Source: Acidobacteriota bacterium (GTDB lineage: Bacteria > Acidobacteriota > Terriglobia > Terriglobales > Acidobacteriaceae). From it: a stretch of DNA of 64,000 nt. The position numbers and the translations under genes are program-made. The DNA lies in the NCBI GenBank assembly GCA_016196065.1, contig JACPYL010000008.1, positions 372,001 to 436,000 on the forward strand. Direction: 5' to 3'. Of the stretch, positions 16,726 to 63,564 are shown one piece after another (within the stretch, counting starts at the first letter, position 1; every line of letters starts with the position of its first letter). The notes under the pieces were generated by a model that worked only from the letters and a program-made list of their open reading frames with translations, ran no database searches and was not told the origin of the DNA.

Positions 16726-17496
16726 TCAGAGAGAAGGACGGCTCTGATGTTCTCGCAGGATCTGTTCCTTGATTCGGCCCGGCAATCGCGAAGTATTGAG
16801 GACATCACGCAAGAGCGGTTCGGGCAGTCCCTGGCTGAATTCGAGTGCCCGCGCGAGCGACAAATACTCCGTACGTAGCAGGGCGATCCGCAATTCCCTG
16901 CGATACGACCACTTCGCGTGGTGCGCCACTGCCTGCACCATGTAGGCCTTCGCTTCCGGACGCAACACTGCCTGGATCACAAAAGTCTCTGTGAGTCGGG
17001 CATTTTCCAGTGCGATCTGCATGACGCGGGCGTCGCCATCCAGCAGCATGGCCCCGGCTACCCGGCCCGATCCGCGGCGGGCGAGGGCGAGGCGTTCCCC
17101 GAGTGTAACCGTCTTCAAACGCGAAATGAGGAGATCATCCGTAGCAACTTTCACATCGGCAGGCACACCCGGAGTGAGCGCGATCTTCATCAAGTCAAAA
17201 GTGTAGAACTGACGAATCAGCGGGATCGAAATCTGGCGAGGCGTGTGCGGATGACTGGCGACAGCGAGCCTCACCTTACGCAGCTTCAGAACACTGGTGT
17301 TCTTTCCCAGCCGGTCCAGGACGTCCACAGGTAAGTCCGCCCACTTGAGCAGTGACAGGGCGAGATCCTCTGTCAGCGCCGGATTCGCAGCCGCACGCAG
17401 AAGTTCCTCCGGTGAAATGTTGTGGGTGAAACTCTCAAGCGAAGCCGGAACCGCTGAAGCTGGGGGTGCCTCTGCGTTTTCATTTTCGCGAATCAT
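16726..17496 (-). CDS. Helical-repeat protein, paralogous to the one at 60535-61794
   Basis: A 256-residue soluble protein, almost wholly helical, with no signal peptide. Repeated helix pairs are visible, such as VRLAVASHPHTPRQISIPLI (about residues 90-110) and ERLALARRGSGRVAGAMLLD (about 145-165). The latter closely parallels GRIALAMRGSKEERSILIRD in the protein at 60535-61794, and the segments after it can be aligned to both C-termini. The start at 17496 (MIRENENAEAPP) lies five bases after the stop of the BadF-type gene, which implies translational coupling. Upstream in-frame codons overlap that gene and are rejected. It may be a HEAT-like scaffold. The function is unknown. Confidence 0.8.
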   Translation of the reverse strand: MIRENENAEAPPASAVPASLESFTHNISPEELLRAAANPALTEDLALSLLKWADLPVDVLDRLGKNTSVLKLRKVRLAVASHPHTPRQISIPLIRQFYTFDLMKIALTPGVPADVKVATDDLLISRLKTVTLGERLALARRGSGRVAGAMLLDGDARVMQIALENARLTETFVIQAVLRPEAKAYMVQAVAHHAKWSYRRELRIALLRTEYLSLARALEFSQGLPEPLLRDVLNTSRLPGRIKEQILREHQSRPSL

Positions 17497-17501
17497 ACGG
17501 T

Positions 17502-18419
17502 TTAGCCTGCCTTCAACTTCCCTGCCCGGCGCGCCAGTGTCAGCGCTCCTTCCACGGGTTCGATCAACTCGCTTTGCAGTTCGACGCCCGGGAAGCGGGC
17601 ATGTAGACAATTGTAGAAAACCTGGCGCACTTCGGTGGACTGACGAAAGACACTGCCCGTCATGGCTACTGGGGCATGGGGAGCCTTGGGCATCAGGCGG
17701 CTAATGACCTTGGCCGTTAGGCCAGCTAGCTGCGATCCGGCGTCGGCCAGGATTGCGCGAGCCATGGAATCGCGCTCGGCAGCCGCCTTGAGGACAATGG
17801 GGAAAAGCCGCGGGAAATCAGGTGAGGGTTCCGAGTTGGCAGTTTCTACGAGTGCGCTCAAATCACGCAAATTCCAGGCTTGAAGCACCAAATCGGAAAG
17901 AGCCGTTTGCTGCCCTGCATCGCGGGCGCGCAGGATCATCGAGACGGCATGCTTGCCGATCCAGTGCCCGGAGCCTTCGTCCGAGATTGCGAATCCCCAG
18001 CCACCGGCGCGGGCCGTACGGCCGGTGGCGTCGCGTCCATAGACGATCGAACCTGTGCCCGCGGCAACGATTACTCCGGGCCCAGTACCGAAGGCTGCCT
18101 CGAGGGCGATCACCATGTCTCCGACAACTTCGACCAAGGCGGGAGTCAGTTCCGCGAGGATGCTTTGAACTTTGGCTGCAATTTCGGGCCGGGCTGCTCC
18201 GGCCGCACCAACGCAGATGTTTCGGATATGAGCCGGTTCAATCTTTGCGGAAGTGCATGCTTCCCGTATGCAAGCGTGTAACGATTCGCGAGCCAGCGCT
18301 TCGCCAGAACGGATGATGTTGCTGCCTCCGGCGACGGCCGTGGCCAGAGTCCTTGTTTCGTCACCCAGGGCGCAGCGAGTTTTCGTGCCGCCGCCGTCGA
18401 TGCCAAGGTAAAACGCCAC
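17502..18419 (-). CDS. BadF/BadG/BcrA/BcrD-type ATPase, probable N-acetylglucosamine kinase
   Basis: A 305-residue ASKHA-fold kinase. The phosphate-1 loop DGGGTKTRCALGD is at residues 8-20. VGAAGAARPEI follows near 70. GTGSIVYGRDATGR, GGWGFAISDEGSGHWIGKHA near 145-170, and the closing adenosine loop VAMTGSVF complete the family pattern. Bacterial members of this size phosphorylate GlcNAc or related amino sugars, often from cell-wall recycling. The substrate here is inferred from the family only. The next gene on the same strand begins five bases downstream, so the two are probably an operon. It diverges from the APC permease at 18519, with 99 bases between them. Confidence 0.85.
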   Translation of the reverse strand: MAFYLGIDGGGTKTRCALGDETRTLATAVAGGSNIIRSGEALARESLHACIREACTSAKIEPAHIRNICVGAAGAARPEIAAKVQSILAELTPALVEVVGDMVIALEAAFGTGPGVIVAAGTGSIVYGRDATGRTARAGGWGFAISDEGSGHWIGKHAVSMILRARDAGQQTALSDLVLQAWNLRDLSALVETANSEPSPDFPRLFPIVLKAAAERDSMARAILADAGSQLAGLTAKVISRLMPKAPHAPVAMTGSVFRQSTEVRQVFYNCLHARFPGVELQSELIEPVEGALTLARRAGKLKAG

Positions 18420-60096: not shown

Positions 60097-60501
60097 TTAT
60101 CGGAATCGGGCACGGTGCTCTTTCAGAATGCAACGGTCCATTACGACGAAAATCCCCGCCTGGCGGGCCTTTTCAGCGGCCTGTTCGTTGATCACATCTT
60201 CCTGAAGCCAGATCGCGGGAATCTTCAACTGGATGGCTTGCTCAACAATCTCATCCACATATTCTGGACGTCGAAAAACGTCGACGAGATCAATCTTGCC
60301 GGGGACATCGAACAGGGACGGATAGGCTATTTCTCCCAACGCCTCGGAAATGTGCGGGTTCACGGGAATGATTTTGTATCCCTGCGATTGCATGTACGCA
60401 GAAACGCCATGGCTCGGGCGCATCGCACTATCGGACTGTCCCACGACGGCAATGGTTTTGACCCGGGACAGCAATTCGTAGATGGCGTCTGGTTGCTTCA
60501 A
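60097..60501 (-). CDS. CoA-binding (YccU-like) protein
   Basis: 134 residues, a single Rossmann-like CoA-binding domain of the YccU type. IAVVGQSDSAMRPSHGVSAY, VNPHISEALGEIAYPSLFDV, DLVDVFRRPEYVDEIVEQA and IWLQEDVINEQAAEKARQ fit the family order. The biochemical role of this family is not established, although CoA binding is supported structurally. It is the last gene of the - strand cluster, 33 bases after the helical-repeat gene. Confidence 0.9.
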   Translation of the reverse strand: MKQPDAIYELLSRVKTIAVVGQSDSAMRPSHGVSAYMQSQGYKIIPVNPHISEALGEIAYPSLFDVPGKIDLVDVFRRPEYVDEIVEQAIQLKIPAIWLQEDVINEQAAEKARQAGIFVVMDRCILKEHRARFR

Positions 60502-60534: not shown

Positions 60535-61794
60535 TTAGTCTTTGCCACCCTTCTCCATTTTCTGTTTGAACATCCGCAAGGCAAGCTTGCGAACCGTGTC
60601 GGACACTTCTTTGTTCCCCGACAGATTCTTCAAATCGTGAATCAACAGGTTCTTCATGAGGCCGAGCGAGATATCCAGCGGCGTGCGTGGATTGAACACC
60701 AGATTGCGCACGATCGTGTAGTTCTTCATGAAGCGGCGGCGCATGGGTATGGCGCGCAAGACCGCCTCCAGTACATTCTTCTGGAGTGCGAATTTTTCTA
60801 CCTCGCCGTCGGAGACTTTCGGAGAATCGAGTACCGCCAGTGCCACCAGTTTGGTGCTATCGCGGATTAGGATGGATCGCTCTTCTTTGCTGCCGCGCAT
60901 CGCCAGCGCAATGCGCCCCGTAATGTCGAGCTTGGAGATCTTCTGGAGCGTGCTGTCACGCTTGGTGTCCCCCAGTGCCACGATCGGCTTTCTGCCTGCC
61001 TTGATGCCGGCGGCACTCGGCGATGCAGGAGTCGCGGGAGCTTCCGGTACTGGTGCGGTTGCGGTTCCACCCTCGATGCCAGTTCCCTCCTGCACAACGA
61101 CTGCTTCAAACGGCTTATCGCCTGCCGCAGCCAATTCGGATTGATTTTGCTTCAGGTAGTCCACAATCGCCTGCTCAACGGCGGGTTCGTTCACGCCTTC
61201 GGAGTCGTCCGCAGGAATTGAGGGATCCACAATCGGAGCCGCCCCAGCTTCTGGATTCGCAGCCGCCGTCTCAACCGGCGCAACGGCTTCCACGGGAGGC
61301 GTCGCGGGCGCTGTGGCGGACGCGCCTTGTCCGGGATTGACGAGTGCTGCCAGTTCATTGGCCCGAACCCGCGGATTGCTTTGCAGCGCCGTCATGAGCG
61401 CAGTTGATTTCTTGAAGGTCTCGTCGGCAAGCAGCGCCTCGACCACCCAACGAGCACCTGTGCCGGCTACTTCCAATAGCGACTTTTGTGGGACCGCGGG
61501 ATTCTTCAATAGCGCCGGCAGCGTTACCGGACGAAGGTTCTTCGGCGACACCAGGTATCCCAAAACCTCAGCGCTGGTATTCGGGTCGGCGGCAACCGAT
61601 GTTGATGCATTTTCATCCCAGCCAGCCAGGGTCATACGCGCCTGTTCCGCAAATACCTTGTTGTGGAGGGCGAGGTGGACGAGAATTTCCATCATCTCGG
61701 CGGGCTGTACAGAGAGCGCACCGCGCGCCGCCGCCTGCATCATTTGCGATGACATCTGCGATTTGCGGACCAGATCAATCATCCGATGCTGCAT
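60535..61794 (-). CDS. Helical-repeat protein, paralogous to the one at 16726-17496
   Basis: 419 residues, no signal peptide. Helix pairs recur: EMMEILVHLALHNKVFAEQA, TLPALLKNPAVPQKSLLEVA, and then a Pro/Ala/Glu-rich linker at about 170-285 (APATPPVEAVAPVETAAANP). The C-terminal 130 residues hold GRIALAMRGSKEERSILIRD and VRNLVFNPRTPLDISLGLMK. Both are echoed in the protein at 16726-17496, which has ERLALARRGSGRVAGAMLLD and VRLAVASHPHTPRQISIPLI. It lies three bases after the SpoT-like HD gene, so the two are probably translationally coupled. The function is unknown. A HEAT-like scaffold is the best guess. Confidence 0.85.
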   Translation of the reverse strand: MQHRMIDLVRKSQMSSQMMQAAARGALSVQPAEMMEILVHLALHNKVFAEQARMTLAGWDENASTSVAADPNTSAEVLGYLVSPKNLRPVTLPALLKNPAVPQKSLLEVAGTGARWVVEALLADETFKKSTALMTALQSNPRVRANELAALVNPGQGASATAPATPPVEAVAPVETAAANPEAGAAPIVDPSIPADDSEGVNEPAVEQAIVDYLKQNQSELAAAGDKPFEAVVVQEGTGIEGGTATAPVPEAPATPASPSAAGIKAGRKPIVALGDTKRDSTLQKISKLDITGRIALAMRGSKEERSILIRDSTKLVALAVLDSPKVSDGEVEKFALQKNVLEAVLRAIPMRRRFMKNYTIVRNLVFNPRTPLDISLGLMKNLLIHDLKNLSGNKEVSDTVRKLALRMFKQKMEKGGKD

Positions 61795-61797
61795 GAT

Positions 61798-62451
61798 TCA
61801 TCTCCCTCGTTTGTCCTGAACCCTTGCTGCGCGCCGCTTTCGGGCGGCTCGGGGCGGTTTTACCCCGGCCATCATTTCCAGTTCGCACACGACAATCGCC
61901 AGCTGACGGGTGGTCCGATTCGCTTTGCGGCGCTGAAATTCTTCATTCAAGGCGCGATAGTACCAGAGCGTGCCGTCACGGCCGCCGCTGAAACGTTTCC
62001 AGATGGACTCCCCGTCGTAGCGATAGTCGGCAATGATGGTGCGAACGTTATGCAACTTGTCGGAAGCTGAGACCAGGCGGGTTTCGGCGTCTTCGCTCTT
62101 CAGCCGGGATAGATATTCGCTCTTGCGGACGATCCACGGCAGTTTCGGATCGGAGAACGAATCCGTGCAGCCTTCGACAATCTTCGCTACACGGCCGCCA
62201 AACATTTTATGAACCTCGCGCAGCCTCGGCATGCCGCCACAGTCTTCCACCACATCGTGCAGGAGTGCTGCGATGGCCATATCCTCGTCGCCGCCGCTTT
62301 CCATTACCAACGACGCAACCGCCATCAGATGCGACAGATAGGGCACGGCAGTTTGTTTGCGAGTCTGTCCTGCATGCTTATCGGCAGCATAGCGAAATGC
62401 CTTCTGCAGACGCGGGCCTAAGTGTGGCGGCTTGGGGGCGCCAGGTTTCAT
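61798..62451 (-). CDS. SpoT-like HD-domain hydrolase, probably a small alarmone hydrolase
   Basis: 217 residues. The HD-type metal site of RelA/SpoT hydrolases is preserved: VPYLSHLMAVASLV (first His), IAALLHDVVED (H-D and E-D) and VSASDKLHNVRTI (Asp). No synthetase or regulatory domain follows, only a basic Arg/Lys-rich tail. This resembles SAH/MESH1-type enzymes that cleave (p)ppGpp, but other nucleotide substrates are possible. The ATG overlaps the prfB stop as ATGA (62448-62451). It is probably co-translated with prfB. Confidence 0.85.
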   Translation of the reverse strand: MKPGAPKPPHLGPRLQKAFRYAADKHAGQTRKQTAVPYLSHLMAVASLVMESGGDEDMAIAALLHDVVEDCGGMPRLREVHKMFGGRVAKIVEGCTDSFSDPKLPWIVRKSEYLSRLKSEDAETRLVSASDKLHNVRTIIADYRYDGESIWKRFSGGRDGTLWYYRALNEEFQRRKANRTTRQLAIVVCELEMMAGVKPPRAARKRRAARVQDKRGR

Positions 62452-63564
62452 GTTGTTTTTTCACCTCTCCGCATGCGCAGGTACGCCTGCATGAACGGCC
62501 TCAAATTGCCGTCCAGTACACGGTCTACGTCGCCGACTTCGAACTTCGTCCGGTGATCTTTGATCAGGCGGTACGGTTGCAGGACATAAGAGCGGATTTG
62601 CGATCCGAAACCGATATCGAGTTTGGAGTCTTCAATTTTCTTGGTTACTGCGCGCTTCTTCTCCATTTCGAATTCGTAGATTTTTGAACGCAGCATGCTC
62701 ATCGCCTTTTCTTTGTTCTTATGCTGGGAGCGTTCGTTCTGGCAACTGGCAACAAGTCCCGTAGGGATGTGCGTAATCCGCACCGCCGAATCGGTTGTGT
62801 TGACGTGCTGGCCGCCCTTGCCGCTGGAGCGATAGGTATCGATACGAATATCGTCCGGCTTGATGATGACTTCGATGCTGTCATCAATTTCCGGCGACAC
62901 AAAGACGCTGGCAAACGAAGTATGGCGCCGCTTTGCCTGGTCGAAAGGTGAAATGCGGACGAGGCGGTGTACTCCGATTTCGCTGGAAAGGTAGCCGAAG
63001 GCATACTGGCCGTTGACCACGAAGGTCGCGGACTTGATGCCCGCTTCTTCGCCGGGCTGCTCGTCGTACATTTCCGTCTGAAAGCCCTGCTGCTCAGCCC
63101 ATCGCAGATACATACGCAGCAGGATCTGCGCCCAGTCCTGGGACTCCGTACCGCCCGCACCCGGATGGATGGTCACGATGGCGTTGCGTCCATCGTTGTC
63201 GCCGGAAAGCAGCGTTTCAGTTTCTACGCGGTCGACAAGTTCGGTCAGGCTCGTCAGGTCGCGCTGCAATTCGCTGGTGACGTTTTCGCCTTCGCCGGCA
63301 AGATCAAAATACGCGCCGATATCATCGGTGCGCCGCGCCAGATCGCTTTCCAGGGACAACATGCCTTCCAGGCGCTTGCGTTCCCGCATCACTTGTTGGG
63401 ATTTCGCGGGATTCGACCACAGACTCGGGTCAGCCGCCTGCTTTTCGATTTCGGCTAACTGCGGGCGCAGTTTACCGGCGTCAAAGATACTCCCGAAGGT
63501 CGTGGACTTTGCTTTTGAGTGCGGTGTATTGCTGCTCGAGTTCAGCTAGAAGGTTGTCGCTCAT
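62448..63564 (-). CDS. prfB: Peptide chain release factor 2 (programmed +1 frameshift)
   Basis: 371 residues if the frameshift is used. The first frame (63564-63484) encodes 27 residues, MSDNLLAELEQQYTALKSKV to DLREYL, then a TGA at 63483-63481. A +1 shift continues DAGKLRPQLAEIEKQAAD and the rest to 62448. The stop-codon recognition tripeptide SPF is near residue 206 (VRISPFDQAK). The catalytic GGQ is near 250 (SSGKGGQHVNTTDSA). RF2 ends translation at UGA and UAA. The start overlaps the end of lnt by 23 bases, and its stop overlaps the HD gene. Confidence 0.96.
63480..63495 (-). promoter_or_regulatory. RF2 autoregulatory frameshift site
   Basis: On the - strand the site reads CGGGAG-TAT-CTT-TGA-C. 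It has CTT-TGA-C as the slippery Leu codon and stop, with a GGAG ribosome-binding-like core at the same distance as the usual AGGGGG. When RF2 is low, the ribosome slips +1 at the TGA and finishes RF2. Confidence 0.93.

Follow-up and report, generated by a model that had tools for sequence, protein, structure and literature searches.

Alpha-solenoids of the ARM/HEAT type, such as importin-alpha and the scaffold subunit of PP2A, have an overall shape similar to that of the predicted models of two proteins, A and B, encoded in the acidobacterial window analyzed herein (the whole stretch of DNA under study, 64,000 nucleotides). They differ from A and B in that Foldseek searches of the PDB with the two models returned no match at E <= 0.001, and a PDB sequence search with A and B returned no relevant match. 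The leucine-rich repeat variant (LRV), which has been solved as 1lrv, has a model of 26 residues, as compared to a conserved unit of ∼127 residues in A and B. With regard to layout, a described counterpart of A is SopA of Myxococcus xanthus (MXAN_0371, 405 residues), which, as described in PMC11580455, acts with FrzS and SgmX on pili and is, like A, cytoplasmic with two folded, conserved regions and an unstructured middle. The same paper places SopA homologs only in Myxococcales, with no motility gene beside sopA, and the likeness to A is one of described layout. According to PMC6946637 and PMC13327600, RodZ is a transmembrane component of the Rod complex, together with MreB. The literature searched, including for alpha-solenoid together with RodZ, did not contain the RodZ-A gene order described below, and nothing on the A/B family was present among the LRV and HEAT literature matches listed. 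The kind of protein shape is known, and the family has no name in the libraries searched.

As judged from predicted structure and charge, protein A consists of an N-terminal solenoid, an acidic disordered linker, and one conserved basic C-terminal unit (Table 1). The predicted model of A has a mean pLDDT of 84.1, with two helical domains (residues ∼1-152 and ∼282-416) mostly above 90 and the disordered linker between them. The model of protein B, for which an alternative, longer TTG start is possible at position 17610, has a mean pLDDT of 88.9 and a pTM of 0.79 from an input alignment of only 12 rows, and its predicted helices recur at a spacing of 127 residues (starts at 43/170, 57/184, 73/200, 87/214, 99/226, and 113/240). 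The unit spans ∼127 residues with about nine short, HEAT/LRV-like helices, is strongly basic, and contains a highly conserved ExRxxLIRD-type stretch; the columns of A that are conserved to at least 85% include E304, R306, L309, R311, D312, R347, N368, P369, P372, D387, and R402. Relatives were aligned from named loci, which come from a pattern scan favoring one exact peptide pattern and of which the best 80 of 133 were used. Alignment A4 contains window A and 49 of the 80 A frames, and alignment A5 contains window B and the full set of 11 B frames, with the N-terminus trimmed in three. In the 50 aligned A proteins, the linker is always negative (mean -12.9) and the C-domain always positive (mean +13.5), and N-domains of either sign occur (37 negative, 10 positive). 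The net charge of window A over residues 276-419 is +13, and that of the C-domain ranges from +6 to +17 in 98 of 98 cores, 11 of which are from outside the phylum. A short linker motif near residues 203-224 was seen by eye to recur in the rows of A4 from the window's lineage. In one lineage (L073, L075, L142, and L179), A is ∼630-650 residues long; the A profile matches twice in L142, where the N-terminal part of A seems to be duplicated.

Table 1. Positions in the window of proteins A and B, their parts, and the genes beside them
Feature	Position	Strand	Basis or remark
Protein A, 419 aa	60535..61794	-	ATG start 3 bases past the HD stop codon
A, N-terminal solenoid, residues 1-152	61339..61794	-	Block means of pLDDT 90-98
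A, helical stretch within the linker, ∼residues 203-224	61123..61188	-	Block means of pLDDT 82-92
A, C-terminal conserved basic unit, residues 282-417	60544..60951	-	Conservation, model, profiles
SpoT-like HD_4 protein, 217 aa, upstream of A	61798..62451	-	Pfam/NCBIfam; lineage-specific neighbor
prfB main frame	62448..63392	-	prfB model matched from model position 47 on
CoA_binding_2 protein, downstream of A	60097..60501	-	Lineage-specific neighbor
Protein B, 256 aa, one alpha-solenoid of two tandem units	16726..17496	-	ATG start 5 bases past the stop codon of the BadF-type gene
B, copy 1 of the unit, residues 28-128	17113..17415	-	Model and profiles
B, copy 2 of the unit, residues 132-251	16744..17103	-	Model and profiles
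BcrAD_BadFG-type kinase, upstream of B	17502..18419	-	Pfam/NCBIfam

A and B are homologous predicted alpha-solenoids, and B consists of two tandem copies of the C-terminal unit of A. A BLASTP comparison of A with B was marginal (E 0.045 for the single comparison), and on this pair alone homology could not be established. Comparison of an A-family profile (37 sequences) with a B-family profile (30 sequences) resulted in an E value of 1.8e-24; set A1 keeps 36 of the 37 A sequences, leaving out one with a stop inside the match, and set A2 keeps 25 of the 30 B sequences, leaving out five with over-long or odd N-termini. The profile of the A C-domain matched whole B at E 6.9e-24, with a second alignment at 3.3e-19, as compared to 0.23-0.24 for reversed profiles and 0.016 to 0.4 for six unrelated families, three of which contain TPRs. 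Chance resemblance was rejected on the basis of the reversed profiles. When the copies were compared separately, the A C-domain matched copy 2 at E 7e-25 and copy 1 at E 2e-21, and the two copies matched one another at E 1.3e-23 (reversed, 0.23). The best offset of B against itself is 127 residues, for window B as well as for the mean over its family. The N-domain of A is distantly related to the C-terminal unit (E 1.7e-7 against B; reversed profile, 0.3). Single-sequence searches of the window's own genome with A or B found no further paralogues at E <= 10, a setting in which A misses even B. The initial annotation had described matching segments in A and B that occur in opposite order, and had taken the order as a sign of a repeated unit. 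Both open reading frames and both segment pairs are indeed present, one segment of A pairs with copy 1 of B and the other with copy 2, which accounts for the opposite order, and the profile-profile comparison that it proposed gave the significant mutual match above, with reversed profiles at ∼0.2.

Neither window protein reached a Pfam or NCBIfam cut-off. When 36 A cores and 25 B members were scanned singly, only weak and scattered Pfam matches were obtained, and an NCBIfam scan of 50 A proteins gave nothing relevant. Three named families were considered. For LRV (PF01816), B scored 15.8 bits against a cut-off of 21.6 and A had no match at E <= 1; weak matches at E <= 0.1 occurred in 4 of the 25 B members (best E 0.0017) and in none of the 36 A cores, and 1lrv appeared in the Foldseek list of B as a weak match at rank 29 (E 0.30, TMq 0.21). 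Short helices with an NPxTP-like turn are a further point of resemblance to LRV. For DUF2336 (PF10098), B had a local match at E 0.16 with 11.8 bits against a cut-off of 34.6. A TPR solenoid was rejected because neither A nor B had a TPR match at E <= 1 and the three TPR-bearing families gave E values of 0.016, 0.3, and 0.35 in profile comparison. The top Foldseek rows were mostly ARM/HEAT or designed repeats, all insignificant. A second-look fold comparison returned ARM/HEAT and other helical repeats with Z up to 7.5 for A and 8.3 for B, a level that is common for helical repeats, and the absence of a fold from this listing proves nothing. The predicted models are confident and all-helical, and the libraries searched revealed neither a characterized family nor unrelated folds, which bears out the earlier description of helical-repeat proteins of scaffold-like shape with no named family. 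A and B are best read as two members of one family without a name in Pfam or NCBIfam and as cytoplasmic alpha-solenoid adaptors.

To place the family in its genomic context, an even sample of 119 genomes from the window's phylum was searched at E <= 0.001. B was found in 61 of the 119 genomes and A in 89, one of which (G060) has a weak match that is really a B homologue and was left out of the counts, leaving 88 A loci; these were scanned with neighbor profiles that had been derived from other loci. Nearly all of the named relatives carry the label Acidobacteriota or that of a group inside it. A conserved gene order, with A immediately behind a RodZ-like gene, is seen in most of the phylum sample. 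Of the 88 loci, 66 have this gene upstream of A in the same orientation, spread over 35 of 43 families, and 4 of the 22 loci that are negative for it have less than 400 bases of contig upstream. The two genes overlap in 39 of the 66 loci and lie within 50 bases in a further 21 (60 total), with a gap of exactly -4 in 20, where the first possible codon is used as the gene start and long overlaps are therefore overcounted. Of the 66 RodZ-like neighbors, 65 contain HTH_25, 54 contain RodZ_C, and 60 have a membrane-like stretch. The neighbor is the only HTH_25 match in its genome (E <= 1e-6) in 41 cases; two or three matches are present in 24 and none in one. B is upstream of A in 25 of the 88 loci, all of them RodZ-linked, and downstream of A are a PP2C gene in 35 loci and a TPR or DnaJ-TPR gene in 29. 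A frequent block is B-RodZ-A-(DnaJ/TPR)-PP2C. The order B-RodZ-A-TPR-PP2C is sometimes followed by a protein of ∼565-590 aa (cluster c25; L068:10281-12047, L069, and L076) with only a weak SprT-like Pfam match (E 0.0048).

Co-occurrence of A and HTH_25 in the phylum sample (83 genomes with both, 5 with A only, 17 with HTH_25 only, and 14 with neither) gave a Fisher p of 2e-6, a statistic that ignores kinship; moreover, as the genes are linked, a single missing contig takes away both. Genome G081, in which B and HTH_25 lie at the end of a contig and A is absent, seems to be such a missing-contig case. It should be noted that 17 of the 100 genomes with an HTH_25 match are without A, 8 of them from the window's own family, and that three small genomes (1.9 Mb) of family f5 (G004, G020, and G047) contain A with a full upstream flank and no HTH_25 match at E <= 1e-6. 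These exceptions in both directions indicate that neither gene needs the other.

An adaptor that brings proteins together at the envelope is the role indicated by the solenoid fold, by the conserved charged stretch, by the presence of a basic unit and an acidic linker in one chain, and by the tight spacing to the gene for RodZ, a membrane morphogen. Our current hypothesis, which we hold tentatively and with somewhat less than even confidence, is that A is a cytoplasmic adaptor for envelope or cytoskeletal machines that is tied to RodZ in most of the phylum, its binding partner and mechanism being inferred. A would be made together with RodZ as its putative partner, gene order being the sole link between the two. 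The basic C-terminal solenoid would dock either on the membrane or on some part of the RodZ-MreB machinery that is acidic or phosphorylated, and the N-terminal solenoid would bind a second protein. The acidic linker could compete for the basic surface and keep the adaptor closed until a partner is present, a putative switch that is drawn from charge alone, acidic linkers being common in disordered protein. The PP2C phosphatase could then reset a phosphorylated partner.

The same basic surface could instead bind RNA in the manner of Pumilio-type repeats, with the family tuning the translation or mRNA of its neighbors, such as prfB or the RodZ operon. This would agree with the uniformly basic unit (98 of 98 cores), with the position of a Pumilio domain as the match of highest query TM-score among the 50 Foldseek matches listed for B (TMq 0.35, E 0.33), with the appearance of PUF proteins in the second-look fold comparison, and with prfB as a neighbor of A in the window's lineage. 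However, all of the fold matches are weak, with none at E <= 0.001 and top rows that are mostly ARM/HEAT or designed repeats, and the RodZ, FrzS, and PilM neighbors belong to protein machines. We therefore consider an RNA-binding solenoid to be unlikely.

Outside of the Acidobacteriota, matches to the unit profile at E <= 1e-5 were obtained in 87 of 97 genomes sampled from the Myxococcota phylum and in 35 of 100 sampled from the Thermodesulfovibrionia phylum, with some of these genomes represented by B-type matches only. Loci from these phyla were chosen by hand (16 Myxococcota A, 5 Myxococcota B, and 20 Thermodesulfovibrionia, of which 12 are A and 8 are B), and in the 40 loci fetched no RodZ-like gene was recognized near family members. 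Of the 16 Myxococcota A loci, 12 have a convergent FrzS-like gene no more than 3 kb from A, and in 8 of these the distance is at most 100 bases; among the four negative loci, L281 is cut by the contig end. At one locus the neighbor matched the solved FrzS receiver at E 2.9e-70. Five of the 12 matches are distant (E 7e-21 to 4e-29) and, as ordinary receivers reach ∼1e-10, those five neighbors can be called only FrzS-like. We guess the locus tags of the gene beside frzS in M. xanthus to be MXAN_4150/MXAN_4148, neither of which appeared among the literature matches listed. Two of the Myxococcota A loci contain a confirmed CoaX and one a confirmed BirA. In the genus of G310, taken to be Myxococcus on account of FrzS, all 27 genomes match, 26 of them with three matches at E <= 0.001; the third paralogue (L314-L322 and L325-L327) has a different N-terminal stretch, a low-complexity linker, and the solenoid unit. 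SopA was considered as the identity of this third paralogue, which is of broadly similar length, but position and length do not identify SopA. One Thermodesulfovibrionia locus has the order A-pilM-pilN-pilO-(226 aa)-secretin, and another has an S4/FtsJ methyltransferase gene on one side of A and a MotA/TolQ/ExbB gene on the other.

These contexts could indicate that in all of these phyla A is an adaptor for polar or type IV pilus regulators, in which case the RodZ-like protein of the Acidobacteriota would serve polarity and not elongation. The FrzS-like genes in 12 of the 16 chosen Myxococcota loci, the pil order, and the layout that A shares with SopA, described in PMC11580455 as working with FrzS and SgmX, all favor this view. 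Yet convergent genes form no operon, five of the FrzS-like matches are the distant ones, and the pil link occurs in one of the five loci whose neighbors were read out of 12 fetched. In addition, no pilus gene is among the neighbor clusters annotated in Acidobacteriota, and the likeness to SopA is one of layout. A role in pilus regulation throughout is accordingly improbable, to about the same degree as RNA binding. Under the preferred hypothesis of an envelope adaptor, docking of this sort may be put to use by polar pilus regulators in Myxococcota, where A is often beside FrzS.

The variety of neighbors could also be taken at face value. A would then be a generic protein-binding solenoid with no single role, whose partner differs by lineage and whose neighbors, which range over RodZ, HD-prfB, SecA or TPR-TonB_C, FrzS-like, pil, and MotA/TolQ/ExbB-like genes, are incidental. 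The conserved polar residues, the uniformly basic unit, and the acidic linker instead suggest one kind of ligand, the RodZ link recurs in 35 of 43 families, and TPR genes, which follow A in Acidobacteriota, immediately precede it in 4 of 16 Myxococcota loci. We find this generic role rather unlikely. At the other extreme, the family could represent a new class of self-closing adaptors for actin-fold (ASKHA) machines, in which the acidic linker caps the basic solenoid until a partner is met. MreB, PilM, CoaX, and the BadF-type kinase share one fold superfamily, and the neighbors on which this broader proposal draws are RodZ, which works with the bacterial actin MreB, in Acidobacteriota, the actin-like pilus protein PilM in one Thermodesulfovibrionia genome, the type III pantothenate kinase CoaX in Myxococcota loci, and the BadF-type kinase beside B in the window. 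The birA-coaX neighbors may be mere housekeeping, and we consider such a class to be very unlikely.

In the window itself, A is not beside RodZ. The RodZ of this genome (HTH_25 and RodZ_C) is on another contig, and A instead follows prfB and a SpoT-like HD gene. A CTTTGA at 63481-63486 (minus strand), upstream of the main prfB frame, is at what we take to be the place where RF2 genes usually carry the +1 frameshift site. The order prfB-HD-A-CoA_binding is found in all three A loci of the window's family, and 8 of the 11 genomes of this family are without A and have an HTH_25 match. Among the best 80 of the 133 named loci, HD-prfB-A-CoA_binding occurs in 20 and HD or prfB is upstream of A in 7 more, with a SpoT-like HD_4 gene upstream of A in 21; the remaining upstream contexts are RodZ-A in 25, SecA and/or TPR-TonB_C in 14, and none of these in 14. 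A tree was built from 98 cores, comprising 87 of the 88 A loci (the core of L235 is too short for the filter) and 11 chosen loci from outside the phylum. The three rows from the window's family form one clade inside 43 acidobacterial rows, 27 of which are RodZ-linked (SH-aLRT 92, below the star of the program), and at least five changes of neighbor label are needed. The tree is weak: it is based on few columns, 37 of its 93 branches are open, and the rows from outside the phylum do not fall on one side. Its topology hints at, but does not prove, an older RodZ link that disappeared in the window's lineage, where the adaptor would have parted from rodZ to stand, as it now does, behind prfB-HD.

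The apparent loss of an older link takes weight from the argument that had been based on nucleotide-handling enzymes. The initial annotation had treated the coupling of A and B to such enzymes as a general clue to a scaffold or regulator; its repeat and scaffold-like shape hold up, but its pointer to nucleotide enzymes is restricted to the window's lineage, and the neighbor in 66 of the 88 phylum-sample loci is RodZ-like instead. Likewise, the BadF-type kinase that it expected to be conserved by B is found with only two members among 20 clustered loci, both from the window's family, and B is instead upstream of A in 25 of 88 loci. A scaffold that joins A to the SpoT-like HD protein and B to the sugar kinase is therefore highly improbable, since the 3 bases between the HD and A genes and the HD or prfB genes upstream of A in 27 of the best 80 named loci are set against HD and prfB neighbors at 3 of 3 A loci of the window's family but at none of the other 85 in the phylum sample, and against a BadF-B pair in 2 loci only.

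RodZ ties the MreB cytoskeleton to cell-wall synthesis, and A is a candidate missing part of that machine because it lies directly after rodZ in 35 of 43 sampled families and after the only HTH_25 match in 41 of 66 genomes. The unit is present in 87 of 97 sampled genomes of the Myxococcota phylum, often by FrzS, which makes the proposal testable in M. xanthus. In addition, the definition of the unit covers proteins that are now without a domain name.
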